DNA from: Wenzhouxiangella marina
GTDB taxonomy: Bacteria; Pseudomonadota; Gammaproteobacteria; Xanthomonadales; Wenzhouxiangellaceae
Length of the DNA: 64,000 nt
Reading direction: 5' to 3'
NCBI RefSeq assembly: GCF_001187785.1
Contig: NZ_CP012154.1
Coordinates: 2,784,501-2,848,500, forward strand
A program made the position numbers and the translations under genes. Below the pieces are notes generated by a model. That model was given only the letters and a program-made list of their open reading frames with translations. It was not told the origin of the DNA and did not search any database. This document shows positions 1,764 to 49,680 of this stretch, piece by piece; positions within the stretch are counted from its first letter, which is position 1, and each line of letters starts with the position of its first letter.

Positions 1764-4481
<2,718 letters not shown>

Positions 4482-7466: not shown

Positions 7467-8696
7467 TCAGAACTCCCCCTGAAACCAGTGTTTGATGCGC
7501 TCCCACAGGCTTTCCCCACCCCGCCCCAGCGGCGTGCGGTGCCGCCCGTCGGCACGCGATCCATAGATCAGCAGCCCCACGCCGGTGGCGTAGATCTGGT
7601 TGCTGACCACTTCCGACAGGCCGGTCACGCCCTGGGGAGTCCCCAGGCGCACCGGCATGTGCAGAATCTCCTCGGCCAGTTCGACCACTCCTTCCATCTT
7701 CGCGCCGCCTCCGGTCAGAACCAGACCGGCCGGAATCATCGATTCGAAGCCGGACTGACGCAGCTGCTTGTGGACGTGGTCGAACAGTTCGCGATAGCGC
7801 GCCTCCACCACCTGGGCCAGGGTCTGGCGCTCGAGGCGGCGGGGGTCGCGATTGCCCACGCTGGGCACCTGGATGGTCTCGTCGCTCGACACCATCTGCT
7901 CCAGGGCGCAGGCGTACTTGATCTTGATTTCCTCGGCGTGCACGGTCGGCGTGCGCAGGGCCACGGCGATGTCATTGGTGACCAGGTCGCCGGCGATCGG
8001 GATGCAGGTCGTGTGGCGGATCGCGCCTTCGGTGAACACCGCCACGTCCGTCGTGCCCGCGCCGATATCGACCAGGGCGATGCCGAGATCGCGCTCGTCG
8101 TCGCTGAGCACGGCGTGGCTGGAAGCCAGCTGCTGCAGGATCAGATCGTCGACCTGCAGGCCGCAGCGGGCCACGCACTTGGTGACGTTCTGGACCGCAC
8201 TGACCGCCGCCGTGACCAGATGCACGCGCGCCTCCAGGCGCACGCCCGACATGCCCACCGGCTGGCGGATGCCATCGGTGGAGTCGATGACGTATTCCTG
8301 CGGCAGCACGTGCAGGATGCGCTGATCGGCCGGCACGGCCACGGCACGGGCGGACTCGAGCACGCGCTCGACGTCGCCATCGACCACTTCCTTGTCGCGA
8401 ATGGCCACCGCCCCGTGCGAGTTCAGCGAGCGCACGTGGCTACCGGCGATGCCGGCAAAGACCGAATGAATCTCGCAGTCGGCCATCAGCTCGGCCTCCT
8501 CGACCGCGCGCTGGATCGACTGCTCGGTGGATTCGATGTCCACCACGACGCCGCGCTTGAGGCCGCGCGAGGGGTGCGAGCCCAGGCCGATCACCTCGAC
8601 CTGACCGTCGGCCTGGATCTCGCCGACGATGGCGACGATCTTGCTGGTGCCGATGTCCAGGCCGACGACCAGCGATTTCTCGGGGCGCTTAGCCAT
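7467..8696 (-). CDS. ftsA: Actin-like cell division protein FtsA
   Basis: A 409-residue membrane-attached actin homologue that anchors FtsZ filaments and recruits later division proteins. The phosphate-1 loop GLDIGTSKI is near residue 12, the second phosphate loop VDIGAGTTDV near 205, and the adenosine motif VLTGGGAKM near 335. The C-terminal amphipathic helix SLWERIKHWFQGEF is the membrane target. The true start is the ATG at 8696 (MAKRPEKS), overlapping the ftsQ stop by 8 bases; the open frame extends further but only through ftsQ sequence. Confidence 0.97.
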   Translation of the reverse strand: MAKRPEKSLVVGLDIGTSKIVAIVGEIQADGQVEVIGLGSHPSRGLKRGVVVDIESTEQSIQRAVEEAELMADCEIHSVFAGIAGSHVRSLNSHGAVAIRDKEVVDGDVERVLESARAVAVPADQRILHVLPQEYVIDSTDGIRQPVGMSGVRLEARVHLVTAAVSAVQNVTKCVARCGLQVDDLILQQLASSHAVLSDDERDLGIALVDIGAGTTDVAVFTEGAIRHTTCIPIAGDLVTNDIAVALRTPTVHAEEIKIKYACALEQMVSSDETIQVPSVGNRDPRRLERQTLAQVVEARYRELFDHVHKQLRQSGFESMIPAGLVLTGGGAKMEGVVELAEEILHMPVRLGTPQGVTGLSEVVSNQIYATGVGLLIYGSRADGRHRTPLGRGGESLWERIKHWFQGEF

Positions 8697-31266: not shown

Positions 31267-32571
31267 TCAGCCCCGTTGCCGTAGCTTTTCCCAGAATTTC
31301 AGGCGTTTGACGATTTCGCGTTCGAAGCCGCGTTCGGGCGGCTGGTAGAAGCGTTCGCGCTGCATCTCGTCGGGGAAGTAGTTCTGGCCGGAGAAGCCCT
31401 GCTCCGTGTCGTGGTCATAGGCATAGCCGTCGCCATAGCCCAGGTCCTTCATCATGCCGGTGGGCGCATTGAGGATGTGCTTGGGCGGCATCAGGGAGCC
31501 GGTGCGCCCAGCGGTCTTCCAGGCCGACTTCTGCGCCCGGTACAGGGCATTGGACTTGGGCGCGGTGGCCAGGTAGACCACCGCCTGGGCGATCGCCAGC
31601 TCACCCTCGGGCGAGCCCAGCACCTCGAAAGCCTCGCGAGCGGCCAGGGCCTGAGTCAGGGCATTGGGATCGGCCAGACCGATATCCTCGGAGGCAAAGC
31701 GAATCAGCCGCCGCGCCACATAGAGCGGGTCCTCGCCACCGGCGAGCATGCGCGCCAGCCAGTACAGGGCCGCATCGGCATCCGAGCCGCGCATGGACTT
31801 GTGCAGGGCCGAGATCAGGTTGTAATGCTCGTCCCGGTCCTTGTCATAGGCAGCCGCACGGCGCTGGACCAGACGCATCAGGGCATCCGGGCCGATCGCT
31901 TCCTCGCCCTCGCCCACCAGATCGAAGATCGCCTCGACCATATTGAGCAGGTAGCGACCATCGCCATCCGCCATCGCCCGCAGCAGCGCCCTCGCCTCCG
32001 CATCCAGCGGCAGCTCGCGCTCGCTCAGGCGCTCGGCCCGCCCCAGCAGGCGATCCAGGGCCGCGTCGTCCAGGCGCTTGAGCACCAGCACCTGCATCCG
32101 CGATAGCAGGGCCGCGTTCAACTCGAAGCTCGGGTTCTCGGTCGTGGCCCCGACCAGGGTGATGGTGCCGTCCTCGACGTGCGGCAGGAAGCTGTCCTGC
32201 TGCGAACGATTGAAACGATGGATCTCGTCAACGAACAGCAGGGTCCGACGACCGTTCTGGCGCCGCAGCCGCGCAGCCTCGAAGATCTTCTTCAGCTCCG
32301 CCACGCCGGAGAAGATCGCCGAGATCTGGACGAACTCCAGATCGCCCACATCGGCCAATAGCCTCGACAGGGTGGTCTTGCCGGTGCCCGGTGGCCCCCA
32401 GAACACCAGGGAGCTCACGCGGCCGGCCTCCACCATGCGCCGCAGTGGACCCGAGTCGCCGAGCAGATGATCCTGACCAACGACGTCATCGAATCCCTTC
32501 GGCCGCAGGCGATCGGCCAGGGGGGCGTCGTCAGCCGACGATTCGATGTCCGATGCGAAGAGATCGTTCAT
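31267..32571 (-). CDS. rarA: Replication-associated recombination protein RarA (MgsA)
   Basis: A 434-residue clamp-loader-like AAA+ ATPase acting at stalled replication forks. Walker A is FWGPPGTGKTTLSRL near residue 58, Walker B is LLFVDEIHRFNRSQQD near 112, sensor 1 is LVGATTENPSFELN near 140, and the arginine-finger region is ALLSRMQVL. The C-terminal tetramerisation domain includes MRGSDADAALYWLARM and the ending RGFEREIVKRLKFWEKLR. Start ATG 32571 gives MNDLFASD; the frame open to 32604 is longer but not family-like. The usual neighbours lolA and serS are not next to it here. Confidence 0.96.
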   Translation of the reverse strand: MNDLFASDIESSADDAPLADRLRPKGFDDVVGQDHLLGDSGPLRRMVEAGRVSSLVFWGPPGTGKTTLSRLLADVGDLEFVQISAIFSGVAELKKIFEAARLRRQNGRRTLLFVDEIHRFNRSQQDSFLPHVEDGTITLVGATTENPSFELNAALLSRMQVLVLKRLDDAALDRLLGRAERLSERELPLDAEARALLRAMADGDGRYLLNMVEAIFDLVGEGEEAIGPDALMRLVQRRAAAYDKDRDEHYNLISALHKSMRGSDADAALYWLARMLAGGEDPLYVARRLIRFASEDIGLADPNALTQALAAREAFEVLGSPEGELAIAQAVVYLATAPKSNALYRAQKSAWKTAGRTGSLMPPKHILNAPTGMMKDLGYGDGYAYDHDTEQGFSGQNYFPDEMQRERFYQPPERGFEREIVKRLKFWEKLRQRG

Positions 32572-32798
32572 GGCCCGCCATGCTACCGCGTCCAGCCCGG
32601 CCATGGCGTGCCGCGCCGGACCAGGCTGCGAGTCTGGGGGTGCGGTCTGGACCTCCGAATGTGACAGCGCAGCGTTGGAGCAGGCGCCCTGCCCCGCCCG
32701 AGCCCCCCGGAACCGCGGTGCGGCCCGGGATGCTCGTGACGACTGCCACCAGGCGGGCGTTCAGCGCCGCAATGCAACGGCGCCGAAAAGGCCGAGAC

Positions 32799-38700: not shown

Positions 38701-39662
38701 AAGCTGCTGCCCGACTTGTCGTAGATCAGGGCCAGCAGGGCGACCTGCTCGCCACCGCCCGCGATGATGTCGATTTCATAGACGGTGGTGATCGGCCCCC
38801 CGGCCTTGCCGGTTTCGAGGCAGGACAGGTAGTTCGGGCTGTTCGGATCCGGCTCCCAGAGGCAGCCATCGGCATACAGACTGGGGTTCGGGACCGGCAC
38901 GCGCGTCGGCGGTGCGGTCAGGGCGCTGTAGGTCGTCTCGACGGACTTGACCTGAAAGATCGTGTTCGACAGGGTCAGGAAGGACTGCAGCTGCTCGTAG
39001 GCCGTGGCGGTCTGGGTGATCAGCTCGATGAAATAGGTCTGGCCCACGGCCAGGTTCAATCCGCCGCCGGCGCCCAGGATCTGCCAGTCGGACTGGTTCG
39101 CCTGCTGGCCCCAGCGAATCTGCTGGGTGGAGTTGCGGTTCTGGGAAATCAGGCGCTCGACGTAGATCTGGCGCGGCGTCGGGCTGGAAAAGATCAGCGC
39201 TGAGTCATTGTCGGTCGCGTCGATTCGATAGGGCCGGATCTCGTCGAAGGCCGCCGCAGAGCGCGTCAGCTGGATCTCGAAGTAGGCGTCGAAGCACTCG
39301 CCCACACCGAGCGGACCCGATTCCAGGGTCGACAGGGAGCCGGGACGGGTAAAGATGAACGCGTCGTTGAGGTCTTCCCATATGAAATTGACTGTCGCGT
39401 TGCTGATCGCCGTATCGGTGCAGACCCGAGCCCCGACCGGAAAGAGTTCCGGCCCGCTGGTCAGCGGACGGTTGCTGTCCAGGCCGACCACATCCCAGGT
39501 GATGGGCGTCACGGTCAGATCGGCCAGTGCGTGGCCTGCCATCACGAAGCTCAACACCAGCGCCCCCACGCTGGCACGCAAGCCTCGGACCCACGGCTTC
39601 GAGCGAAGGTCGGACCCGGAAACCCCGGCTCCACCCCCCCAGTTCAAGACCCTGATCATCAT
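32799..39662 (-). CDS. Giant exported protein: DUF11-like repeats, GEVED domain, C25 gingipain-like peptidase
   Basis: A 2287-residue protein. The start is the first ATG of a tandem ATG-ATG at 39662, 5 bases after AAGGGG; the signal peptide ends AGHALA near residue 48. Domain order: a lead region (50-335), DUF11-type beta repeats starting at KRFTPSTIAADGTSTMRL (about 337-490), an inserted AT-rich domain (about 492-657), more DUF11-type repeats (to about 1165), a GEVED-type domain from FGDAPASYST to DGEVEDHLMD (about 1175-1411), a WSTASETNNQGFYVWG segment, and a C25 cysteine peptidase domain (about 1915-2280) with FSGHGSPTLW (His near 2143) and STAACYTSYF (Cys near 2178), the expected catalytic pair. 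It ends LLGDPTLRLSGN without a membrane anchor, PEP-CTERM or recognisable sorting tail. Probable surface or secreted protease-adhesin; the substrate is unknown. Confidence 0.85.
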   Translation of the reverse strand: MMIRVLNWGGGAGVSGSDLRSKPWVRGLRASVGALVLSFVMAGHALADLTVTPITWDVVGLDSNRPLTSGPELFPVGARVCTDTAISNATVNFIWEDLNDAFIFTRPGSLSTLESGPLGVGECFDAYFEIQLTRSAAAFDEIRPYRIDATDNDSALIFSSPTPRQIYVERLISQNRNSTQQIRWGQQANQSDWQILGAGGGLNLAVGQTYFIELITQTATAYEQLQSFLTLSNTIFQVKSVETTYSALTAPPTRVPVPNPSLYADGCLWEPDPNSPNYLSCLETGKAGGPITTVYEIDIIAGGGEQVALLALIYDKSGSSFHYNTDVNQSPGDIIISDPTDATIQKRFTPSTIAADGTSTMRLTISNPNPFEVSGYRFIDPLPSIPSLGSMLVANPANASSSCGGTLVATPGTATVDFSGGVIAANSTCTILVDVTVPAVVGATYPFDLLNSVDLFVGDATTPSDTATATLTVVAEPPPPVQCTPIAPGSSVAEWSSFESLNNPNHPTTGPVVNDFGVTTAAGAGVVTTVDNNNRWETSVPNGEAVGTARTNNRYYEFVLDTTGLDLVNLSFVVSRQNNNGPSTITLDYGPAGSITENAAQWGPVNSGSPPSTFSVANLTNLNPAGNTFFRLIVSGASNNSNIPIRIHSANFTGQGEICTTITALTPPTLAKVFNPSTVYPGEPSTLTFTVTNPNPADALNGVTFRDELPPGMTSVGGSFVNTGCGGTWGLDGGDPTVLLLTDAVLAGGASCTLSVDVTSDSIGDNINISDPVDADETLPGNSATDTLVVLPPPPPASIDKTFDPNPLLNTAGSSTLTFQITNNDPTLTISQVAFTDTLPTTPVAMVPAASPIVFSDNGNCGGAFSFTWDGSALNFSNGEILGGQVCELEINVVVPGLTPGDLPAQFDNQTSTVTHVFQGVTYTGNQADATLLVDEPIPGIQMLKQVGLLNDPEAGWADYLALPLGGEVFYKLTIENIGETPLVDVNFIDPNPQVDTSGCPSNFALPVVNPLQPTDHIAVCIIGPVNAGTAGVFVNTATATGTGNGTPVQDSDSATYATTEITLVKSADRASFGFAGEVINYSFTVENTGFATLRGPVQINDDVIGIISCPALSTVGNGDNFFNPGEVVVCTASYTATVADATAGSVTNIAFAFTPEDQSNNDTVTVNYVSTTDFGDAPASYSTPLAANGPHHVISGPWMAAYGNAVGNPGANDTDADTDGIASVLADGDLGDEQGVALADFRSFSTGQAVSCDGVEMTNDPVGDVFEYCAAVRVVNPTGSDAQLVGWVDFGGSGVFGNTCGTDGQISANCGRSAAAVRVGATGLVDSGGSCSASGLAAGSSIGGADFTTGNIPANCEGVVVLVWRYTAADSLTLNDTFARFRITTDSTNGFFSDPSPFGFQTDGEVEDHLMDSGTIPVSIHAFESTFTREGLEVRWSTASETNNQGFYVWGVTRGGGLELLTPEMIPSKAEGIVEPQHYTEVIRGVSRGEIGDLVITAVDNFGAEEMYGYFRVGGAFGRENDADQIDWTPIRQAAENRMRGRGYRAIGNAWRRETAGARATVSAVDFKVSQPGMQQISFETLRQAGLDLTGVRVDDIAVTRNGVPVPRVLSTTTSGNRRGSSVARERAILFWGELPDAPDSLYIDEYVYRVELRPEAALSARPLDRLGDRPTRFSDLHYAVQTVEEDATYSPFNANPDPWFMYRLRSNSSSANRYNASFEVGGEMRRDMTARVRVRIAGLTDMPASPNHRIQVFVNGEEFEDYFFDGQTTQLIDIDVPGDRFFQGENTVTVVSPGGLEVISHSLLDSVSLSYPVAMRAKGNALYIAEPLVTASDQGLRVDGFRRTGSMHAFGWDGESLFEIPVTAVGREVAEFPLLSERDAADPAYWVSTSDAFVQPTLIGGVESADLASGLGELLLIVHPAFLPADPSDSHPLNDYVAHRQQGGWTVSVVDITDIQLHYGGGMPLPGAVNHFLVDALSSSKVSHVLLVGGDSYDYRDRYELGSLSFIPTHYAGTSYVSHTPSDARLADLDGDGLSDLALGRWPVRTLDDLRVSVQKVFDWEGRLAADRSAVWLTDENDPKIQPFSNQAERMLDILRGTGWPEGNIDRIFFEEIIDEGGTPDLARQQLFQALENGRTLTGFSGHGSPTLWSFQGILTSGDVAELGNQGLPTLISTAACYTSYFTSPFSETLAHRLMNGFEVDTSGVPVAATNGAVAVHGAATLSNYLQNEIFMRTVLEGLVAGDTLGGAIQQARIHAAELHMNDLVTNWTLLGDPTLRLSGNQPGR

Positions 39663-39866
39663 TTTTCCCCTTTTCAAGAAGCCGAGAGACAATTACTACA
39701 GAGCATACAATAGAATCGGGCTCTACACAGCACGACTTGACTGTCGTGGAACGCCCGGAAATGGATCGGCATGGTAGACTGCTATCAAGAGCGGTTCATC
39801 GGACGCTCCGGCATTCTCCATGAACCCGAAGAAAATCGTTTCGATAAAGGGTGGGAACAGATCTTC

Positions 39867-40076
39867 ATGAACACGGAAAACAAGCAATCCTCCGAGGCCG
39901 AAGCACCGCTGCCTTACGAAAAGCCGGAATTCAAGCGCCATCGGCTGGACATCATCACCCTGGGGGGGACGCCGGGTTCGGGTGATTCCGGGGCGCCTGG
40001 AGCCGAGGAGAACGCCGGCAGTGGCGTGGGACATGAGGAAGAGGGCTGGGACGACAACGGCGGAAAGGATTGGTAG
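39867..40076 (+). CDS. Lasso-peptide-type RiPP precursor
   Basis: A 69-residue peptide directly upstream of a lasso cyclase homologue. The leader contains Y17-E-K-P20-E-F22, the YxxP element recognised by RRE domains in lasso systems, with Phe where Leu is more usual. Thr31 stands at position -2 of the predicted cleavage site (DIITL|GG), the conserved lasso position. The predicted core begins G33-G-T-P-G-S-G-D40, placing an Asp at core position 8 for an 8-residue macrolactam ring. The remaining 29 residues are Gly- and acid-rich and end GGKDW, long for a lasso tail. The start ATG 39867 is chosen because the upstream in-frame part (from 39771) has no leader character. Cleavage site and ring are inferred from family rules. 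Confidence 0.78.
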   Translation: MNTENKQSSEAEAPLPYEKPEFKRHRLDIITLGGTPGSGDSGAPGAEENAGSGVGHEEEGWDDNGGKDW

Positions 40077-40094
40077 TGATCCCCTGCTGACGTC

Positions 40095-40106
40095 GGCGGG
40101 TTCGCC
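40095..40106 (+). promoter_or_regulatory. Small hairpin between precursor and cyclase genes
   Basis: GGCG-GGTT-CGCC sits in the 47-base gap after the precursor stop. A stem-loop in this place could lower expression of the enzymes relative to the precursor; the stem is only four pairs, so support is weak. Confidence 0.25.
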
Positions 40107-40123
40107 CCCCTGTCCTGCCCGGC

Positions 40124-41962
40124 ATGCCCTTCCTGCTGCTCGAGCGCGCCCGCTTCGCTGAAGGTCCGAACGAATCGTCGTGGACATCATCGCTGGCCCC
40201 GACCCGCATCCCTGCTGACCGCTGGTCCAGAGTCACCTCCGCGGACTGGACCCTGGCAGTCGCCCCACCCGCTCGTTGCCTGCTCTGGCGAGACTCCATC
40301 GCAGCCGCGCCTCCCTCCGAGACACGCCACTCTGAACCACGCTTTCTGATTGCCTTCGATGGCTTCCTGAGCAACGCCGCCTCGCTGAGGGACGGCGTTG
40401 CCGGCCATGCCAGCGGACCCATCGACGAACTCGAACTGATCGCGCGCCTGCTCGAGGCCGGCGGCCCGGCGGCGCTGGACCGGCTCGACGGCAACTATGC
40501 GCTCTGCGTCATCGACCCGGCGGCCAACACCGTCCTCGCCCAGCGCGATCGCCTGGGCGGCCGGGCCCTGTACTGGTCGCAGACCGGCCATCGACGGGCG
40601 CTGGCCACCAACAGCGCCAGCCTGGCGACCCTGAACGGCCGGCCCGCGGCGGAGAACGAAGGGTTTGCCGCCCGCTTCCTGGCCTTCGACTACCAGCGTG
40701 AAACTTCCGAAAGCGCCTTTGCCGGGGTACATGAACTCCTTCCCTGGCAGCGGCTGAGCATGACCAGCGCCGGCGCGGAGCTGAGCGATCGCGACACGAG
40801 GCTGAACCTCGACCTGCCCGACCACTCCGACCGCGAGTGGATCGACCTGTTCCTGAGCCGCTTCCGCTCCAGCGTCGAGGCCAATCTGGGCGGCCATGAT
40901 GATGTTGCCATCATGCTGTCCGGCGGCCTGGATTCCGGTCCCACGGCCGTGCTCGCCCAGGAGCGGCTGACTGGCACGGGGCGGAGCCTCAGACCGGTCA
41001 GCTGGACACTGCCCAGCCACCCGCGGGCCAATGAAGCCCGCTGGATCGAACGGATCTGCCAGCACTTGGAGATACCGCTGAACGCCTTCGAAGGCGACGC
41101 ACTCCAGCCCTTCGACGAGCTGAGTACGGCGGCGATCAGCCCGGACCTGCCCTTCTACAACGCCTTTCGACCGCTGATCCAGCGCTGCTACGAGCTGGCG
41201 GCAGCGCTGGATTGCCGAGTCATCCTGAACGGCAATGCCGGCGACCTGATCTACCCGCCGCGATCCCTGTTGCTGATCGATCAGTGGCGGCGCTTCGGCC
41301 TGTCCGGCGTCGCCCGGAGCCTGAAGGAGATTATTCAGGTGGGCGGACTGCGCGGACTCCTCCGGGATCCGGCCGTCCGCCACCCGATCGGACGGCGACT
41401 TCCCTTCCGAAGGCAGCGCAACGCCACGCCCTGGCTGACGCCCCGGGCGAACAGGCTGCTAGAGGACCGGGAGGGCCTCCAGCCGCCCGGCGTCGATCGG
41501 CATGCCTACCCGGACTACGCGCGCCAACTGCTCGGCCGCAGGATGAGCTTTGGCCGCGCCCAGGAGAACAACTTCGCCCACATGCACGGCATCGAGCGAC
41601 GGGATCCCTTTCACAACCAGCCACTGGTCGAACTGATGCTCCAGATGCCCTTCGATCTGAGTTTCCGCGAGGGCTACGACAAATGGATCATGCGCCAGGC
41701 CATGATCGGGAAGATGCCCGAGGTGCTCCGCAAGAAACCTCGGACCGGACGACTCAACAGCTTCTTCGAGACGGGCTTCAGCAACAATCGATCGAGGATT
41801 CATGGATTCCTGTTCGAATCCAACCGCAGCTGGCAGGCCTACGTCGAACCCGACTACATCGATCGAGCGCTCAGCCGGCAGAAGGCCAGCGCCAGGGAGC
41901 AGATGGTCGTCAACCAATGCATCGGCTACGCCCTGTGGCGCGACTACTGGGAGAAAGCCTGA
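40124..41962 (+). CDS. Lasso cyclase (asparagine-synthetase-like, C protein)
   Basis: A 612-residue asparagine synthetase B homologue. The N-terminal half is the glutaminase-like fold (RFLIAFDGFLSN, DRLDGNYALCVID, LAQRDRLGGRALYW), but the residue after Met is Pro, so the catalytic Cys of true glutaminases is missing. The C-terminal half has the ATP pyrophosphatase loop MLSGGLDSG near residue 265 and the FHNQPLVELMLQMP and KWIMRQAM segments near 495-530. In lasso pathways this protein adenylates the Asp/Glu side chain at position 7-9 and closes the ring on Gly1. It lies between the precursor and B2, as expected. No clear Shine-Dalgarno precedes the ATG. Confidence 0.88.
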   Translation: MPFLLLERARFAEGPNESSWTSSLAPTRIPADRWSRVTSADWTLAVAPPARCLLWRDSIAAAPPSETRHSEPRFLIAFDGFLSNAASLRDGVAGHASGPIDELELIARLLEAGGPAALDRLDGNYALCVIDPAANTVLAQRDRLGGRALYWSQTGHRRALATNSASLATLNGRPAAENEGFAARFLAFDYQRETSESAFAGVHELLPWQRLSMTSAGAELSDRDTRLNLDLPDHSDREWIDLFLSRFRSSVEANLGGHDDVAIMLSGGLDSGPTAVLAQERLTGTGRSLRPVSWTLPSHPRANEARWIERICQHLEIPLNAFEGDALQPFDELSTAAISPDLPFYNAFRPLIQRCYELAAALDCRVILNGNAGDLIYPPRSLLLIDQWRRFGLSGVARSLKEIIQVGGLRGLLRDPAVRHPIGRRLPFRRQRNATPWLTPRANRLLEDREGLQPPGVDRHAYPDYARQLLGRRMSFGRAQENNFAHMHGIERRDPFHNQPLVELMLQMPFDLSFREGYDKWIMRQAMIGKMPEVLRKKPRTGRLNSFFETGFSNNRSRIHGFLFESNRSWQAYVEPDYIDRALSRQKASAREQMVVNQCIGYALWRDYWEKA

Positions 41963-42436
41963 GTGTTGGCTCGCTGGCGCCAGCTGTCGCGGATGGAGCG
42001 CCGCGCGCTCTGGCCAGCGGCCTGGCGCCTGCTGCTGGCCAGGCTGTGTCTACTCGGGGGGATTCGCCGCGCTCAGCGTTGGCTGGGCGACGTAGGAGCG
42101 CTGAAGCTGCCAGAGCAGCTCGGAGAGGAGGACCAGGGCCAGGCGCGCCCGGGCGGAGTGGGCCTGCCGGAGCCTGACATGGTCATCTGGCAGCATCGCG
42201 CCACGGCCCTGAAACGCATCGGCGCTCGCATCCCCGACACCCACTGCCTGGCCCGCGCCCTGGCCCTGCGCTGGTGGATGCGAAGCCAGGGCCTGCCGGC
42301 CGAGATGCGAATCGGCGTGCGCCAGGGCTCGGCAGGGATCGAATCCCACGCCTGGGTCGAACTGGACGGGATCGCGATGGATGAAACGGCCGAGATCGTC
42401 GCCCGCTTCACCACCGTGGACTTCGGGGAAGGATGA
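41963..42436 (+). CDS. Lasso peptide biosynthesis B2 protein (transglutaminase-like leader peptidase)
   Basis: A 157-residue protein that begins with GTG immediately after the cyclase stop codon, so translation is coupled. The C-terminal half carries the transglutaminase-like catalytic set: Cys95 in PDTHCLARALALRWW, His129 in ESHAWVELDG and Asp135. B2 proteins remove the leader so that ring closure can follow. The N-terminal part (ARWRQLSRMERRALWPAAWRL) is the short helical region of the B2 family and is not an RRE domain, so leader recognition must come from another protein. Confidence 0.87.
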   Translation: MLARWRQLSRMERRALWPAAWRLLLARLCLLGGIRRAQRWLGDVGALKLPEQLGEEDQGQARPGGVGLPEPDMVIWQHRATALKRIGARIPDTHCLARALALRWWMRSQGLPAEMRIGVRQGSAGIESHAWVELDGIAMDETAEIVARFTTVDFGEG

Positions 42437-42464
42437 GAGGCCGAAGCGCATCGGCCCGGGAGCT

Positions 42465-43520
42465 TCAGGGCGAGCGCTTGCCCAATCGAGAACGCATCCG
42501 GCGCCAGTAGGCACCGATCAGCGCCACGGGGCGATCGACCCCGTAGCGTTCGCGCATGTGTTGAGCGGGTGGAAAGAAGGTCGAGCGCAGGCGCCGGAGC
42601 TTGCGGCGCGGGCCCGGCTCGCAGGACAAGGAAAACAGGTAGGCGCGCAGCGGATGGCCACTCAAGGCGATCAGGCGCGTCGGGCGCTGGTCGGCGCCCT
42701 CCGCTTCCAGCGAATTCAAGACATCGGAAGGCACGGGCGTGTTCAGCAGCGCCACGGTCTGCCGCAGGACCCCCGCCAGCAGGCCGCTGAGCTGCCGATC
42801 CGCCGCCAGGCGCAGCAGCTCGTTCACCGCAGCTTCATCCAACTGCACCCAGAGCAGGTCGATGTCGAGCAGCCAGCCCAGGGGCCTGGGCTCGTCGTAG
42901 AGGTTGTCGTACCAGTGCATCGCGGCGTTCAGTAGCGCATGGACCGGACACTGACCCTGAACACCCGGCCCCAGGCCGGGCATCTCCACCGACGCCGCCC
43001 ATTGCTCTTCGAAGGACAGACGATCGCGCAGGACGGGATGGTTGCGATTCGCCCAGTGCAGGTCGACGCTCCAGGCACCGGAGGGATGCCTTGCCATCCA
43101 GGGCTCCTGCTCCACCGGCGTGCCACCCGGCACGGACCAGACCGGCCGATAGCCCAGGCTCGTCAGCGCGACGCGGGCCGCGGCAAGCTGGGCGGGGTCG
43201 ACCAGCACATCCAGGTCGGATCGCCAGCGCTGATTCGGTGCCGGGTAACAGCTGTAGGCCAGCAGCGCGCCCTTCAGCGGCAGCATACGAAGGCCGGCCT
43301 CGACCAGGCCATGGAACACCCGACGCTCTTCCTCGATCTGTGCGACCGGCACCACCGGCCGCTCGGCCAGGACGGCCCTTGCCAGCGGCAGCAGGGTGGC
43401 GGGAATCAGCCCACGCTCGGCCAGCAGTTCCGCCGGCCCGAGCAGGCGGTGCCGGATCAGCCACTGGATGCGCTCTGCCGGGCCCGGCAGGGCCGCCAGG
43501 CGTTCGGGCAGGCTCGCCAT
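42465..43520 (-). CDS. Nucleotidyltransferase-family protein (NTP_transf_5-like) of the lasso locus
   Basis: A 351-residue protein with the family core MLPLKGALLAYSCYP followed by RWRSDLDVLVD near residue 105, where the Asp-x-Asp pair should bind metal, and a later VDLHWA segment near 160. Members of this family often accompany lasso and other RiPP clusters (for example with tailoring of the paeninodin type); the exact reaction is not established. The ATG at 43520 follows GAGG by 4 bases; a TTG at 43535 would add five residues. It ends 28 bases from the B2 stop, facing it, and lies 38 bases after the ABC exporter gene. Confidence 0.75.
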   Translation of the reverse strand: MASLPERLAALPGPAERIQWLIRHRLLGPAELLAERGLIPATLLPLARAVLAERPVVPVAQIEEERRVFHGLVEAGLRMLPLKGALLAYSCYPAPNQRWRSDLDVLVDPAQLAAARVALTSLGYRPVWSVPGGTPVEQEPWMARHPSGAWSVDLHWANRNHPVLRDRLSFEEQWAASVEMPGLGPGVQGQCPVHALLNAAMHWYDNLYDEPRPLGWLLDIDLLWVQLDEAAVNELLRLAADRQLSGLLAGVLRQTVALLNTPVPSDVLNSLEAEGADQRPTRLIALSGHPLRAYLFSLSCEPGPRRKLRRLRSTFFPPAQHMRERYGVDRPVALIGAYWRRMRSRLGKRSP

Positions 43521-43558
43521 CAAGCCTCGCGGCAACTCATCGGCTACTCACCGGCAAC

Positions 43559-45388
43559 TCATCGGGCAAGTCGTCGTTCGAACTGTCGAAACACGCTCGC
43601 CTGACGCTCGAAGGCCTGTCGGTAGCGCCCATCGGCCTCGATCAGTTCCGCATGGCTGCCCTGCTCGACGATACGGCCTCGATCGAGCACATGGATGTAA
43701 TCGGTCCGGCAGAGCGTGGACAGGCGGTGACTGATCAGCAGGACCGAGCGCCCCTCGAGGCGCTCGCGAAAGTTCTGGAACAACTCGAATTCGGCCTCCG
43801 GATCCAGCGCGCTGCTCGGCTCGTCCAGGAGCAGAATCCGGCTGGGCCCGAGCAGAGCGCGAGCCAGAGCGATGCGCTGCCATTGCCCGACGCTGATCTC
43901 CTGTCCCGACTGGAAGCTGCGGCCCAGCAGGGTCTCGTAGCCCTTCGGCAGGCGCTGGATGAATTCGTCGGCGCCGGCACGGATCGCGGCCTGTCGGATC
44001 GCGTCATCACGCTCCGGGCCATCGACGTGGCCGAAGCGGATGTTGTTGCTCACGGTGTCGGCATAGCGACCGAAATCCTGGAAGACCACCCCGATGCGGC
44101 GACGGACTTCATCGAGATCGAGTTCCCGCAGGTCGACGCCATCCAGGCTGATCCTGCCGTCCTGCGGGTCGTAGAGCCGGCACAGCAGCTTGACCAGGGT
44201 GCTCTTGCCCGAGCCATTGGCCCCCATCAGGCCGACGATGCGGCCCGGCGGCAACTCCAGGTCGACGCCTTCGAGAACCGCTCGGTCGGAGCCCGGATAA
44301 CGGAAACTCAGTCCCTCGACGCGCAAACGGGGCACCTCCTCCGTCGCCAGCGCGGTCGGCGCCGGCGGGCTGACCAGGCGCGGCCGGTGATCGAGAAACT
44401 CGAACACCCACTTGAGATACAGCTGATCCTCGTAGACGCGACCCAGCTGGCCGATCAAGCCCTGCGCGGCCGTCTGCGCCCGCTGGAAGACCAGCACCAG
44501 CAGCACCAGATCGCCCAGGGTCTGGCGCCCTTCCCTGGCGCCGAAAGCGGTGACGGCCAGGGCCGCGAAGAAGGCCAGCGCCGCCAGCACCGAGATCGAC
44601 AGCTCCAGCAGGCTGCGACGGCGATTGAAGGCCAGGCGCCGCTGCCGTAGACCCCGCATGATGCTCGCGAAGCGCTCCCGCAGGACCGAGCCCAGGCGAT
44701 AGGCCCGCACTTCCCTGGCCGGCAGATCGCTGGTCAACAGCCAGTCCAGGTAGGAGGCCCTGCGCTCCGCCTCGGCCTGGGTGGCCGCCCAGGCGTGCAC
44801 GCGCCGGGCGAAGACCAGGCGTACGGTCAGTGCCGGCAGCAGAGCCGCGAGCAGCAAGGCCAACAGCCAGACATTGATGGTGAAGATCAGGCTGGCCAGG
44901 CCGACCATCAGGCCCAGACTGCCCAGGGCCAGCAGCAGATTGCCGGTGATCTGGGCGGGCCGCTGCACGCCGGCGCGGCGCGCGCGCTGCAGGGAATCGA
45001 AATAGGCCGGGCTCTCGAAGAAGGCCAGGTCGGCACGGATGGCCTGGGCCTGGATACGATCCTGCAGGTGCTCGGCGACGACCGACGACTGGGCCTCGCG
45101 GGCCAGCCCGGCCAGGGTACGGAACACCAGCAGGGACAGGAGGGCCGCGGCGATCACCGCCAGCGATCGCACCAGGCTGGCGACCGAAGCGGCCTGCTCC
45201 AGCAGGACATCGCCCCCCGTCCAGGTATCGACCAGGCTCTTGACCAGCACCAGCACCGCCAGACCGGCCAGGATCTCGAGCAGCATCAGGCCGCTGGACA
45301 GCATCGACCAGGCAGGCGACGCCGTCCAGACCAGGCGCATGGCTCGCCGCAGCGTGGCCCAGGGTGACCTGGCGCGATCGGAGGTCAT
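43559..45388 (-). CDS. ABC exporter (fused permease-ATPase), probable lasso peptide exporter
   Basis: A 609-residue type I exporter half-transporter. Six membrane helices lie in residues about 20-320, and the ATPase follows with Walker A GANGSGKST near residue 383, Q-loop VVFQDFG, signature ISVGQWQRIALAR, Walker B ILLLDEPSSALD and H-loop LISHR. The signature SVGQ (instead of SGGQ) is the form often seen in RiPP exporters. No N-terminal C39 peptidase domain is present, which fits leader removal by B2. Its start overlaps the ydcF-like gene as ATGA. Export of the mature peptide and self-protection are inferred from context. Confidence 0.85.
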   Translation of the reverse strand: MTSDRARSPWATLRRAMRLVWTASPAWSMLSSGLMLLEILAGLAVLVLVKSLVDTWTGGDVLLEQAASVASLVRSLAVIAAALLSLLVFRTLAGLAREAQSSVVAEHLQDRIQAQAIRADLAFFESPAYFDSLQRARRAGVQRPAQITGNLLLALGSLGLMVGLASLIFTINVWLLALLLAALLPALTVRLVFARRVHAWAATQAEAERRASYLDWLLTSDLPAREVRAYRLGSVLRERFASIMRGLRQRRLAFNRRRSLLELSISVLAALAFFAALAVTAFGAREGRQTLGDLVLLVLVFQRAQTAAQGLIGQLGRVYEDQLYLKWVFEFLDHRPRLVSPPAPTALATEEVPRLRVEGLSFRYPGSDRAVLEGVDLELPPGRIVGLMGANGSGKSTLVKLLCRLYDPQDGRISLDGVDLRELDLDEVRRRIGVVFQDFGRYADTVSNNIRFGHVDGPERDDAIRQAAIRAGADEFIQRLPKGYETLLGRSFQSGQEISVGQWQRIALARALLGPSRILLLDEPSSALDPEAEFELFQNFRERLEGRSVLLISHRLSTLCRTDYIHVLDRGRIVEQGSHAELIEADGRYRQAFERQASVFRQFERRLAR

Positions 45389-46146
45389 GCCCAGCCCTTC
45401 AGCCGGTAGTACCAGAGGCCGACGATTTCGTGGATCAAACGCGTGCTGTCCCGCAGCGAATTCGCATTGGGCAGCAGGTTGCGGGTCCAGGAACCCGTGG
45501 TCTCGCCCCAGTGGTAATCGGTCGCCGCGGGCACCGGATCGAGCCCGGCCGAACGAAACGCGGCCAGGGAACGCCGCATGTGCAGGGCCGAGGTCACCAG
45601 AATGAGCTCATCCCACCCCCGGACACGGGCCAGCGCGGCGACATTGATGGCGTTCTCATGGGTGGTCGAGGATTCGCTTTCCAGCACGATGGCCTCGTTC
45701 GGCACGCCCAGAGCAAGCAGATAGGCTCGACCGGCCTCCGCCTCGCTGGTCTGGCCCTGGCGATCCGGCGAATGGCCGCCGGCCACGACGATCAGCGGCG
45801 CCCGGCCCGCCTGGTACAGACGCGCCGCATGCCAGTAGCGATCCACCGCGACATTGCCGTCGGGATAGACCCAGCCCTGGCGATGGAACAGTCCGCCGCC
45901 CAGGACCACGATGGCCTGAGCCGGCTCGACGACCTCGGCCGCCTGCGGCGGATAGGCGGCCTCGAAGCGCTCGATCGCCCAGTCGGAAAACAGGGGCATG
46001 GACCAGATCGTCAGCCAGGCCAGGCCTGCCGCCATGCAGATCGCGCCCCAGGCGCGCCGCCGCAGAAAAAGCAGCAGCAGGCCCAGAAGCAGTGCCGCGA
46101 AGAAGGTGCCCAGCGGATAGATCAGAAAATCCAGCAGTTCGGCCAA
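45385..46146 (-). CDS. YdcF/ElyC-family membrane protein (DUF218)
   Basis: A 253-residue protein with two N-terminal membrane segments (LIYPLGTFFAALLLGLLLLFL, then AWGAICMAAGLAWLTIW) and a DUF218 domain: AIVVLGGGL near residue 80, VVAGGHSPDR near 120, ESSTTHENA near 158 and VTSALHMRRS near 183. E. coli ElyC affects peptidoglycan and enterobacterial common antigen lipid carrier use. The start is a TTG at 46146; no better start precedes the first membrane segment. It is the first gene of the three-gene minus-strand unit with the exporter and the nucleotidyltransferase. Confidence 0.85.
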   Translation of the reverse strand: MAELLDFLIYPLGTFFAALLLGLLLLFLRRRAWGAICMAAGLAWLTIWSMPLFSDWAIERFEAAYPPQAAEVVEPAQAIVVLGGGLFHRQGWVYPDGNVAVDRYWHAARLYQAGRAPLIVVAGGHSPDRQGQTSEAEAGRAYLLALGVPNEAIVLESESSTTHENAINVAALARVRGWDELILVTSALHMRRSLAAFRSAGLDPVPAATDYHWGETTGSWTRNLLPNANSLRDSTRLIHEIVGLWYYRLKGWA

Positions 46147-46527: not shown

Positions 46528-47697
46528 TCATTGAGGTGGCACGCTGGAAGGAATCGTGACCAGGCGCGAAAAGATATCCTCCGTCACCGGCAGATCGCCG
46601 CGAGCGCAGGCCCGATAGAACTCCAGCTTGTGCATGGGCGTCCAGATGGCCCTGGCCATGATGCCCTGGGCGTTCAGGCCCTCGAGGAAGGCATCGCGGG
46701 TCGCTTGGCCGTCGGCGAGAAAGGCGTTGTACCAGTAGTTGGAGCGCGCCTGGGCGGGCTCGCGAAGGAAGCGATAGGGCGTGCCATCGAACCACTCGGC
46801 GTAGCGTTCGGCCAGCGCGCGCTTGCGCTCGACGAAGTCCTCCAGGCGGCTCAGCTGCGCCAGGCCCAGGGCGGCGTTCAGCGCCGGCATGCGGTAGTTG
46901 TAACCGATCTCGTCGTAGCGGTAGTGCCAGGGCTCGTCCTGCTTGGCAAGCGTGGTGAGATGAAGCGCGCGCGCGGCCAGCTCCTCATCATCGGTGACCA
47001 GGGCCCCGCCGGCAGCCGAAGTGACCGTCTTGTTGCCGTTGAAGCTGAACACCCCGATGTCGCCATGCCGGCCCGCATGCCGATCCTGATAACGCGAGCC
47101 CATGGCCTCGGCGGCGTCCTCGACGACCCGCAGGCGCCACTGGCGGCAGACCGCCACGATCTCGTCCATGCGCGGCGGGTGGCCCAGGGTATGCACGGGC
47201 ACACAGGCGCGGATGATGTGGCCGGTAAACCGGTTCCAGCAGCGCCCATCCCCGCGCACTTCCGCGTTGGCCTCCAGCCAGGCCGCCAGGCTGGCCGGCG
47301 ACATGCCAAGGGTGTCTTCATCCACATCCACGAACACCGGGTGGGCCTGGCAGTAGCGGATGGCGTTGCAGGGCGCGATGAAAGCCAGGGACTGGATGAT
47401 GACCTCGTCATTCGGCATGACGCCGGCGACCATCAAAGCGGTGTGCAGGGCCGCGGTCCCGCTGTTGGTGGCCACCGCATGCGGCGCACCGGTCACTGCC
47501 GCCAGCGCCTGCTCGAAGGCCGACACTGCCTCACCGATCGTGGACACCTGGCCTGAGGCCAGCACCTCGGCGACAGCCTCGGCCTCGAGCGCACCCAGCC
47601 TCGTGTCGTGCAAGGGAATGAAATCGCCTGCCCCGAACTCCGCGCGGACCCGTGCCGCGAGCTCATCGATCAGAGACGACTGGATCGCCGGCTTCAT
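46528..47697 (-). CDS. LegC-type PLP aminotransferase (DegT/DnrJ/EryC1/StrS family)
   Basis: A 389-residue sugar aminotransferase. It opens with FIPLHDTRLGALEAEAV and GQVSTIGEAVSAFE, the LegC-group N-terminus. ATNSGTAALHTAL near residue 78 is the cofactor phosphate loop, EDAAEAMGS near 193 holds the PLP Asp, and FSFNGNKTVTSAAGG near 218 holds the Schiff-base Lys. LegC-like enzymes make UDP-linked 4-amino sugars on the way to bacillosamine or legionaminic-type sugars. No matching dehydratase or legionaminate synthase is in this window, so the exact sugar is open. It is the last gene of the polysaccharide operon. Confidence 0.87.
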   Translation of the reverse strand: MKPAIQSSLIDELAARVRAEFGAGDFIPLHDTRLGALEAEAVAEVLASGQVSTIGEAVSAFEQALAAVTGAPHAVATNSGTAALHTALMVAGVMPNDEVIIQSLAFIAPCNAIRYCQAHPVFVDVDEDTLGMSPASLAAWLEANAEVRGDGRCWNRFTGHIIRACVPVHTLGHPPRMDEIVAVCRQWRLRVVEDAAEAMGSRYQDRHAGRHGDIGVFSFNGNKTVTSAAGGALVTDDEELAARALHLTTLAKQDEPWHYRYDEIGYNYRMPALNAALGLAQLSRLEDFVERKRALAERYAEWFDGTPYRFLREPAQARSNYWYNAFLADGQATRDAFLEGLNAQGIMARAIWTPMHKLEFYRACARGDLPVTEDIFSRLVTIPSSVPPQ

Positions 47698-48854
47698 GGC
47701 CTCGCCGCGCGTTCCGCCAGCACTTCGCGATACAGGGCCAGGGTCGCTTCGTTGACGGTCTCGTCGGAGAATTCCCGAACCACCCGCTCGCGGGCAGCTC
47801 TTCCCATTTGCTGGCGCAAGTGCTCGTCTTCCAGCAGGGTGCGGATCGCATCGGCCAGGGCCCGGCCATCACGGGCGGGCACCACCCGGCCCTGCACACC
47901 GTCGTCGACCACGTCCCGGCAACCGGGCACGTCGGTGGTCACCAGCGGCAGACCACAGGCACCGGCCTCGATCAGGCTACGCGACAGACCCTCGCGATAA
48001 CTGGGCAACACGAACACGTCCAGGGAATTCAGGAAGGACGGCACATCATCCACATGGCCGGTGAACTCGACGTTGGGCAGGCCCCGCCAGCGCGCCAGCG
48101 TGCGCTGATCGATCGCTGCCGGATTGCCCGGGTCCGGGTCGCCGGCAATCAGGAACTCGACTTGTGGAAACTGCTCATGAAGCGCACGAGCGGCCTCGAT
48201 GAATTCCCCGACACCCTTGTCGTGCAGCAGGCGCGCCAGCAGACCGACCCGCAGCCCCGAGCCCGAACGAGCACGTGAGGCCGGCGCAAAACGATCGACG
48301 TCCACACCCGAGCCGGGAATCAGGCGCACCCGCGCCGGGTCCAGCTTGAACTGCTCGAGCATCGTGGCCTGGTCGGTGGGGTTCTGGACGACGGTCCAGG
48401 CGTCCTTGGAATTCAGCGCCCTTCGGATCAACGGACGCAGTCCGAGGCGCAGCAGGCGATGCTTGAACGACTGCCCGGTAAAGGCATAGCCCATGCCCGT
48501 GACCGCGTTGATTCGGACGCAGTCCCTGCCCAACGATGCCATCCAGGTCAGCAAAATCGAGGTCAGGGTGAAGGAGTGGATGATGGAAGGCTGGAAGTCA
48601 TCGATCAATCGAGACAGAAAGCGACGGGAGGCCAGGCTTGACCGCAACATTGCCGACTTGCTCTGACGGCGGAAGGGGAGCGGCTGCCAGTCGAAGCCCT
48701 CTTCGAATAACTTCTGGCCGAAGGGACCAGGTGGCGAGACACACGCCAGGGTTCCGAAGTGTTCGCCCGCCGAATCTATCAAGCGCCTTCGAAAGTTGTA
48801 CAGATACCAATCGGTATTGGCGAAAAAAAGCACCTTCAAGTCAGTGAATATCAC
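47694..48854 (-). CDS. Glycosyltransferase family 4
   Basis: A 386-residue GT-B enzyme. The N-terminus KVLFFANTDWYLYNFRRRL is characteristic of the group including PglA/PelF-like GT4 enzymes. The C-terminal domain has GLLARLLHDKGVGEFIEAA near residue 200, then ADPDPG and the E-x7-E nucleotide-sugar motif SYREGLSRSLIEAGA near 300. The start is unclear: GTG 48854 has a GGGGA 7 bases upstream and overlaps the previous gene by 14 bases; TTG 48839 would begin directly with KVLFF. Its 3' end overlaps the aminotransferase start as ATGA. Confidence 0.85.
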   Translation of the reverse strand: MIFTDLKVLFFANTDWYLYNFRRRLIDSAGEHFGTLACVSPPGPFGQKLFEEGFDWQPLPFRRQSKSAMLRSSLASRRFLSRLIDDFQPSIIHSFTLTSILLTWMASLGRDCVRINAVTGMGYAFTGQSFKHRLLRLGLRPLIRRALNSKDAWTVVQNPTDQATMLEQFKLDPARVRLIPGSGVDVDRFAPASRARSGSGLRVGLLARLLHDKGVGEFIEAARALHEQFPQVEFLIAGDPDPGNPAAIDQRTLARWRGLPNVEFTGHVDDVPSFLNSLDVFVLPSYREGLSRSLIEAGACGLPLVTTDVPGCRDVVDDGVQGRVVPARDGRALADAIRTLLEDEHLRQQMGRAARERVVREFSDETVNEATLALYREVLAERAARP

Positions 48855-49680
48855 GGTAGGTCCCCAGCTTGAACCCGTACTCTTTTGCAATCGCTCTTAG
48901 CGTGCCCTGCACTAGGTAGCGGTATTCAGCCTCAGCGATTTCACCGATCGAGGTAAATCCCCTCATTCGTGCCGCTGACCTGACTGGATGAACCATCAAT
49001 TCATAGACCCGGCCGTCCAACCCACCCAATAAGCCTCTGTAGTGCTCATCGGTCAAGACCTCCGGAATTCGGGGCAAGTCAAACACACTGATGATCTGAT
49101 CATTCCATTTCAACTTGCCCCGCCAAGGCCTAGTTGCGGAATCGATCATCCGCTTCAGCACCGCCCTACGCAGCGACCTGGCGGGACTTCGCGTAGGTCC
49201 TTTACTGACCCATGGCACGCGCAATCCGAGTTGTTTGCCCTCGCAAAATCTCGCAACAACACCGAAGATCGCTGGCGATCCATGGACATGCTGATGACTG
49301 TCGATATGCGTCGGCTGGATCCCGGCGTCTAGCAGCCGCTGATACTGAGCGTGCAGCTCCTTCTCTATATGCAATGCATTGACCATGCCCAGAGCAGCTC
49401 GAGCAAGCAAGGACTTTCGGTCACGGAATTCACCGTCCCGATTCACAAGGGAATGCACCGAAGCAGCTTGGGAAATCGGCCTGCCCCAGGTGAGATTGAA
49501 GTGGAGACCAACACCAAGACCTGGATTCTCGGCACTCAACGACACTGCCTGATCAAAGGCCGATCCATTCGCGATCAGAGTAGCGCTAGTCAGTGCATTC
49601 CTTTCATAACAGTCGATGATGCCCAGATTACTGGACTCGTTCAGACCGAAATCGTCGGCATTGACGATCAGCAGACTCAT
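48841..49680 (-). CDS. ChbG/HpnK (YdjC)-family carbohydrate deacetylase
   Basis: A 279-residue metal-dependent deacetylase of the YdjC fold. Metal ligands are NADDFG near residue 7 (Asp-Asp), GLHFNL near 57 and HIDSHQHVH near 125. Family members deacetylate N-acetylglucosamine-containing oligosaccharides or hopanoid glucosamine. In an exopolysaccharide operon it probably deacetylates a lipid-linked or sugar intermediate; this is inference. It overlaps the upstream ATP-grasp gene by 4 bases and the downstream glycosyltransferase. Confidence 0.85.
   Translation of the reverse strand: MSLLIVNADDFGLNESSNLGIIDCYERNALTSATLIANGSAFDQAVSLSAENPGLGVGLHFNLTWGRPISQAASVHSLVNRDGEFRDRKSLLARAALGMVNALHIEKELHAQYQRLLDAGIQPTHIDSHQHVHGSPAIFGVVARFCEGKQLGLRVPWVSKGPTRSPARSLRRAVLKRMIDSATRPWRGKLKWNDQIISVFDLPRIPEVLTDEHYRGLLGGLDGRVYELMVHPVRSAARMRGFTSIGEIAEAEYRYLVQGTLRAIAKEYGFKLGTYRDIH

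Follow-up and report, generated by a model that had tools for sequence, protein, structure and literature searches.

Among the closest described systems is the bsf cluster of Bradymonas sediminis, in which Ser3 of the lasso precursor BsfA is phosphorylated by the kinase BsfK with the help of BsfB1, and ring closure on Asp8 is predicted (PMC10368454; this source, PMC13352647, PMC9266682 and PMC10885120 are all cited here from parts of their text). HprK-like kinases are also found in the paeninodin and pseudomycoidin clusters, where they modify a C-terminal Ser, and the pseudomycoidin cluster encodes a nucleotidyltransferase as well (PMC9266682). Pandonodin, a class IV lasso peptide of proteobacterial origin, is given as the record holder for tail length, with an 18-residue tail and 33 residues in all (PMC13352647). 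Here, we analyse a 64,000-nucleotide stretch of the Wenzhouxiangella marina genome (contig NZ_CP012154.1, positions 2,784,501 to 2,848,500; hereafter the window, whose first letter is position 1), in which genes for a predicted lasso precursor (A), a macrolactam synthetase (C), a leader peptidase (B2), a nucleotidyltransferase (NT) and an ATP-binding cassette (ABC) exporter (D) together span 39867-45388, next to a gene of the gingipain/PorU-type peptidase family C25. Taken as a whole, the account that we find probable is that of a lasso locus split in two, whose product acts in concert with the neighbouring C25 protease and may regulate it. The natural role of many lasso peptides is, to our knowledge, not known.

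Like bsf, the W. marina system comprises genes of the A, B2, C, D, nucleotidyltransferase and kinase types and a candidate for B1, a precursor with a YxxP leader element, a predicted Gly1-Asp8 ring, a Ser or Thr at core position 3, and a C-terminus other than Ser (PMC10368454). Unlike bsf, it has Thr instead of Ile at leader position -2, the Tyr/Pro pair at -16/-13 instead of -17/-14, a 37-residue core, B1 and kinase genes 257 kb away, and the C25 gene beside the precursor. The unusually long tail in a proteobacterial lasso precursor recalls pandonodin; in the window precursor, however, 29 residues (loop plus tail) are predicted to follow the ring, the 37-residue core has a net charge of about -8, and it contains no Cys, so that a tail disulfide is not expected. 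Unless it is trimmed, this core would exceed the 33 residues of pandonodin in length (PMC13352647). The HprK-like kinase and the nucleotidyltransferase link the system to the paeninodin and pseudomycoidin clusters, whereas the precursor ends in KDW (PMC9266682); having no C-terminal Ser, it rules out C-terminal phosphorylation of the paeninodin kind. The C25 protein shares with gingipains and PorU the C25 domain with its catalytic His and Cys, and differs from them in its occurrence in Lysobacterales beside lasso genes and in its long N-terminal region of DUF7933/DUF7507/DUF11 repeats.

Results

Gene A encodes a 69-residue precursor (39867..40076, plus strand; stop codon 40074-40076). Its 32-residue leader (39867-39962) carries the motif YEKP (Y17xxP20), which places Tyr at -16, Pro at -13 and Thr at -2. 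The 37-residue core, GGTPGSGDSGAPGAEENAGSGVGHEEEGWDDNGGKDW (39963-40073), starts with the predicted macrolactam ring GGTPGSGD (39963..39986, delimited with the alignment of relatives), closed on Asp8 (codon 39984-39986); the 29 residues that follow are for the most part Gly or acidic. Within the ring, Thr3 (39969-39971) is predicted to accept the phosphate, by analogy with Ser3 of BsfA (PMC10368454). The monoisotopic mass calculated for the core less one water is 3523.41 Da, to which a phosphate would add 79.97. The leader motif, Thr-2, the Gly-Gly core start and Asp8 had all been described in a preceding sequence-only reading of this DNA, which proposed a lasso peptide with an eight-residue Gly1-Asp8 ring and an unusually long 29-residue tail, and the comparison with relatives supports this interpretation.

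A first search of the genome contigs with C alone returned no relative, and a second with an alignment yielded 12 loci. The precursor profile, built from 12 precursors, matched 45 of the 398 genomes of the order (E of 0.01 or better; own genome and seeds counted) and, at class level, five genomes besides our own among 369 (E 0.001). Core residues were counted over 43 precursors from fetched loci (E < 1e-4, the window's own excluded), 35 of them distinct and 34 parsed, with a pattern that asks for Gly/Ala at position 1 and an acid or Gly at positions 8-9 and hence partly favours Gly1 and the acid; the unparsed precursor (G184) reads Gly1/Glu8 by eye. Gly1 and Asp/Glu8 are present in 34/34 distinct cores (Asp in 26), Gly10 in 33/34, Ser9 in 31/34 and Ser/Thr3 in 32/34, the exceptions at position 3 being G016 (Ile3) and G344. 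Thr-2 is kept in 33/34 related precursors, with Ala in G030. Gly1, Thr-2 and Asp8 are precisely the residues whose loss in homologues the sequence-only reading had named as counting against it, and the reading stands up to this check. In many genomes, homologous precursors with the same motif adjoin C, kinase and B genes. At the level of sequence, the motif is more than chance, and the precursors form a large family in Lysobacterales, part of whose members lie beside a gene for a C25 protease.

At 37 residues, the window core is the longest among the precursors compared. Core length is 17-24 residues in 30/34 distinct relatives; the remaining cores have 27 (G099/G105), 32 (G016), 35 (G030) and 35 (G012) residues. 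Trp is set amid Asp/Glu at core positions 29 and 37 in the window, 28 in G016 and G030, and 24 and 34 in G012. A 34-residue core from another order (G741) has a tail rich in Tyr/Asp and devoid of Trp. Since three relatives combine cores of 32-35 residues with acidic-Trp tails, the long tail appears to be real coding sequence and to be under selection, and a frame artefact as its origin is ruled out by the similar tails of these relatives.

Some precursors of other kinds were also seen. Genome G034 (L064, G034:C2) has two unlike precursors, at 7757-7951 and 3829-4065; one lies directly after an S8 subtilase gene and has VLQG in place of TLG before the core, and the other ends in Ser beside C and NT genes, as expected for C-terminal phosphorylation. 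A lasso-type precursor of the same genus as W. marina, ending in Ser-Ser and outside the window precursor's family, is encoded at 6746-6952 of L065 (G028:C303), near kinase, B1, B2 and C homologues.

The C25 gene (32799..39692, minus strand) is divergent from A across a 174-base gap. The 2297-residue product contains the C25 domain PF01364 (173.7 bits; cut-off 23) with the motifs SGHGSP and STAACYT, and the catalytic His and Cys are kept in all 53 C25 domains compared. The N-terminus is, in our own reading, signal-like, and the peptidase is probably secreted. Its nearest solved structures are PorU (E=2.1e-8) and then gingipain R2 (E=0.0022); the PorU model NF033707 gives 126.8 bits over residues 1575-2292, under its cut-off of 420.

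In 12 of the 42 genomes a C25 gene stands in the precursor locus, whereas random placement of each genome's C25 genes predicts 0.47 (p ~1e-14). The excess persists without the profile seeds and one near-copy (7/29 vs 0.33, p 1.6e-8), and also when our own family is dropped as well (6/28 vs 0.32, p 3.8e-7). In these tests C25 counts and locus lengths were entered by hand, candidate counts were used for some genomes, and three of the 45 precursor genomes (G118, G282, G369) were left out as weak matches. The linked genomes (our own, G016, G030, G181, G050, G073, G079, G099, G105, G063, G096 and G147) fall in four family codes (f1, f4, f8, f11). A directly follows C25 on one strand in G063, G079c, G147 and G181. 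C, A and C25 occur together at three loci of G079, in two of which C25 comes directly after A. Two contigs of metagenome-assembled genomes (MAGs), either of which may be mislabelled, show the same neighbourhood: on one labelled Acidobacteria, C25 directly precedes A-C-K, and on one labelled Anaerolineae, C25 (its last 65 residues on the contig) directly precedes C-A-K-B1-B2. Moreover, C25-linked cyclases cluster on the C tree (6 changes vs 11.6 in shuffled data, none of 500 shuffles as low), suggesting that the linkage may be old and partly lost.

Conversely, C25 loci outside the known precursor loci were scanned for lasso genes. Two of 15 such loci were positive, G059 for C and G186 for B2, the sample (L094 of our own genome, G012:C36, G023:C95, two each from G028 and G070, G059, G082, G186, G093, G076, G089, G066 and G110) having been picked partly for being unlinked and including several contigs of 3-8 kb; many C25 genes hence have no lasso gene in view. 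A tblastn search alone gave no lasso match in the C25 locus of G003 (L100). A second C25 peptidase of our own genome (G000:C1:1125621-1126661) has no lasso genes in the 19 kb examined (L094). In the open-licence literature matches listed for Wenzhouxiangella, Lysobacterales/Xanthomonadales, gingipain, peptidase C25 and secreted proteases, a lasso-C25 pairing is unreported; one listed paper contains both gingipain and lasso, gingipain in a reference only.

The sequence-only reading had missed this neighbour and the precursor family, as well as the lack of B1 in the cluster and the presence of a B1 candidate and a kinase gene elsewhere. A search of the cluster for B1, the protein with the recognition element (RRE) of ribosomally synthesized and post-translationally modified peptides (RiPPs), found none there. 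Our own genome has two PqqD-family matches, and the better of them, the B1 candidate (C1:2567213-2567488, 112-residue frame), lies ~257 kb from A beside an HprK-like kinase gene (C1:2567627-2568604). The candidate scores 47 bits with the best lasso model, NF033530, under the cut-off of 70; among solved structures it comes nearest to TbiB1 (E=1.3e-4), with a weak match to TfuB1 (E=0.075). The kinase reads PLHAAA, GDQGAGKS and SDD when set by eye against the His/GxxGxGKS/DD motif (PMC10368454). Homologues of the remote B1, of B2 and of the remote kinase are adjacent in the congeneric genome G027, which places the three plausibly in one pathway and ties B1 and the kinase to lasso synthesis.

Split arrangements recur in G016, G079, G073 and G092. 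In G016, a congeneric MAG, the B1 homologue and the group of A, C, kinase and B2 lie on different contigs; G079 has a separate NT-B2-B1-K locus with no A or C in the stretch seen, and NT-B2-B1 loci occur in G073 and G092 too. B1-like PqqD genes adjoin the same phosphate-transporter-like gene (a name read from the protein) in our own genome (G000), G016, G006, G023 and G028 (L036, L059, L057, L058 and L056, respectively). As read from the genome, the lasso locus of W. marina appears to be split in two on the chromosome.

The enzymes left in the window agree with the lasso interpretation. C (40124..41962, plus strand, 612 residues) is an asparagine-synthetase-type macrolactam synthetase with PF00733 and SGGLDS; its N-terminus reads MPFLL, so the glutaminase Cys2 is missing, as had been proposed. 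B2 (41963..42436, plus strand, 157 residues, GTG start) begins at the base directly after the C stop codon and is a transglutaminase-like leader peptidase that exceeds the cut-off of NF033537 (lasso_biosyn_B2; 56.4 bits vs 33). The triad assigned to it before stands in part: Cys95 and His129 are kept in 10/10 aligned B2 proteins, while the column of Asp135 is Asp in 5/10 and that of Glu141 (His+12) is Glu in 8/10. Asp135 was thus probably misassigned and we reject it; the likely third acid is Glu141. PF13471 (B2-type) matches, some of them weak, were obtained in 18 of 20 genomes checked, with none in G030 and G105. Among solved structures, the B2 alignment matched no lasso protein.

The nucleotidyltransferase and the exporter with an SVGQ signature, both already noticed on the facing strand, are present. 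NT (42465..43535, minus strand) belongs to PF14907 and is, by analogy, a PsmN-type tailoring gene; its homologues adjoin lasso genes in other genomes. One homologue of D (43559..45388, minus strand, 609 residues) adjoins a lasso B2 gene in L032, and another lies next to B1/kinase homologues in L064. A gene for a DUF218/ElyC-like protein (45385..46146, minus strand), which overlaps the exporter start by 4 bases, is perhaps transcribed together with D; a role in the pathway is doubtful. No promoter-like site was found in a promoter scan of 39600-40200.

Discussion

Our results suggest that the product of this locus is very probably of the lasso type, and its best reading is a phosphorylated Gly1-Asp8 lasso peptide. 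According to this model, B1, encoded ~257 kb off, would bind the YxxP leader through its RRE and help the adjoining HprK-like kinase to phosphorylate core Thr3, as inferred from BsfA, BsfK and BsfB1. B1 and B2 would then remove the 32-residue leader after Leu-1, and C would activate Asp8 and close the Gly1-Asp8 ring round the threaded tail. The phosphate may be further elaborated by NT, and the product would leave the cell through the ABC exporter. Given that Ser3 is the target of BsfK, phosphorylation of Thr3 is the most probable of the roles open to the remote kinase, and this may explain why B1 and the kinase have stayed together. The G016 precursor has Ile3, yet a kinase homologue is present in its cluster.

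A real functional coupling of the lasso peptide with C25 appears likely to us, the divergent protease being its presumed partner. For the form of this coupling we tentatively propose that the lasso peptide regulates, and most likely inhibits, C25. We favour regulation because precursors with short cores, in which no trimming is needed, are also C25-linked, and because three separate loci of G079 each combine a C25 with an A and a C of its own. Trimming of the tail and mere co-expression are not much less likely, and our confidence in regulation is slightly reduced by the two or three C25 genes that accompany one precursor in several genomes.

A number of observations weigh against the overall account. 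The lasso product is predicted from genes, and the best lasso cyclase model gives C 124.7 bits, far under its curated cut-off of 525. No C25 gene is present in the fetched locus of 30/42 precursor genomes, some of them on short contigs; four of the 30 (G040, G051, G060 and G067) have the complete NT-C-A-K-B2-B1 order. The place directly upstream of A is taken in G012 and G034 by a homologous S8 subtilase (42% identical) instead of C25, an arrangement that suits a C25-specific inhibitor less well. The correlation between C and C25 distances (Mantel r 0.77, p 5e-5, 13 modules), a point in favour of the account, would also be the outcome of vertical joint inheritance alone. The congeneric G006 and G009, both incomplete assemblies, have B1-like genes and no B2, C or A of the window type that we could find, so the remote B1 may serve other peptides or predate the cluster. 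Finally, the pairing is not one to one: around one A-C pair there are two C25 genes in G016 and G181 and three in G050, and in G096 one C25 gene lies between two A-C pairs. The lasso peptide of each A-C pair could still control its one to three C25 neighbours as inhibitor, chaperone or activator, with a B1-B2-kinase set elsewhere serving several modules; we think this broader version rather unlikely.

Possibly, the lasso peptide and C25 are independent members of one arsenal, used for example in predation or competition, and are kept together for co-expression only. The varying gene order and orientation (divergent in the window, convergent in G030, and with C25 either upstream or downstream in other genomes) and the variation in C25 number, from one to three for each precursor, would fit such an arrangement, as would the C25 tree, on which linked and unlinked domains are mixed (13 changes vs 16.8 in shuffled data, 17 of 500 as low), a pattern that also speaks against the overall account. 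However, three separate G079 loci each have C, A and C25, and the linkage extends over four families and contigs labelled as two other phyla; on balance this alternative is possible, if somewhat doubtful. It is unlikely, though less so than the two explanations considered last, that the secreted protease matures the peptide, trimming the acidic tail after export to leave a lasso of ~17-21 residues as in the relatives. All cores of at least 27 residues in the order set (our own 37, G030 35, G012 35, G016 32, G099/G105 27) lie beside C25 or S8, the protease class switching from C25 to S8 while its place beside A is kept, and S8 proteases mature other RiPPs extracellularly (PMC10885120). On the other hand, C25 also lies beside cores of 17-24 residues, for which no trimming is needed (G050, G063, G073, G079, G096, G147, G181), and four of the five long-core loci (G099/G105 taken as one) come from one family. 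A sixth long core, the 34-residue one of G741, has no protease in view on a contig that begins just before A, and the acidic residues kept round Trp suggest that the tail has a role.

PorU, a sortase of type IX secretion, is closer to the window C25 than gingipain R2, both in the solved-structure search and through the sub-threshold NF033707 match; a transpeptidase that cuts the lasso peptide or attaches it at the cell surface could be imagined on these grounds, but no acceptor is known and we regard this as very improbable. The same holds for a decayed or non-lasso RiPP cluster whose precursor, for want of B1, would not be processed to a lasso. The window cluster has no RRE gene, and C and B1 diverge from the curated models; the genome does encode an RRE candidate elsewhere, comparable splits are found in the four genomes named above, and the open reading frames are intact with key residues kept.

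Control of a dedicated C25 partner, if true, would give lasso peptides a biological role that is new for them, one spread over several families of a single order and perhaps reaching other phyla. Whatever its form, the statistically strong association with a single protease family, retained across several bacterial families, provides a concrete partner and may explain why such clusters exist; the gene pairing hints at a joint action of knotted peptides and proteases. The arrangement further suggests that A-C modules can work apart from B1 and B2, and such modules could escape mining rules that require the full gene set in one place.

As to the surroundings, a RarA/MgsA-type ATPase gene flanks the C25-lasso region both in the window (31267-32604) and in G016 (L023, 13513-14922), so the region may hold the same chromosomal place in the two genomes, rearranged. 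Sugar genes, among them those for a LegC-type aminotransferase and a glycosyltransferase, precede the exporter gene on its strand (46528-48890), and in G009 and G029, B1 homologues are found among genes that, read from their proteins, are of the polysaccharide type.

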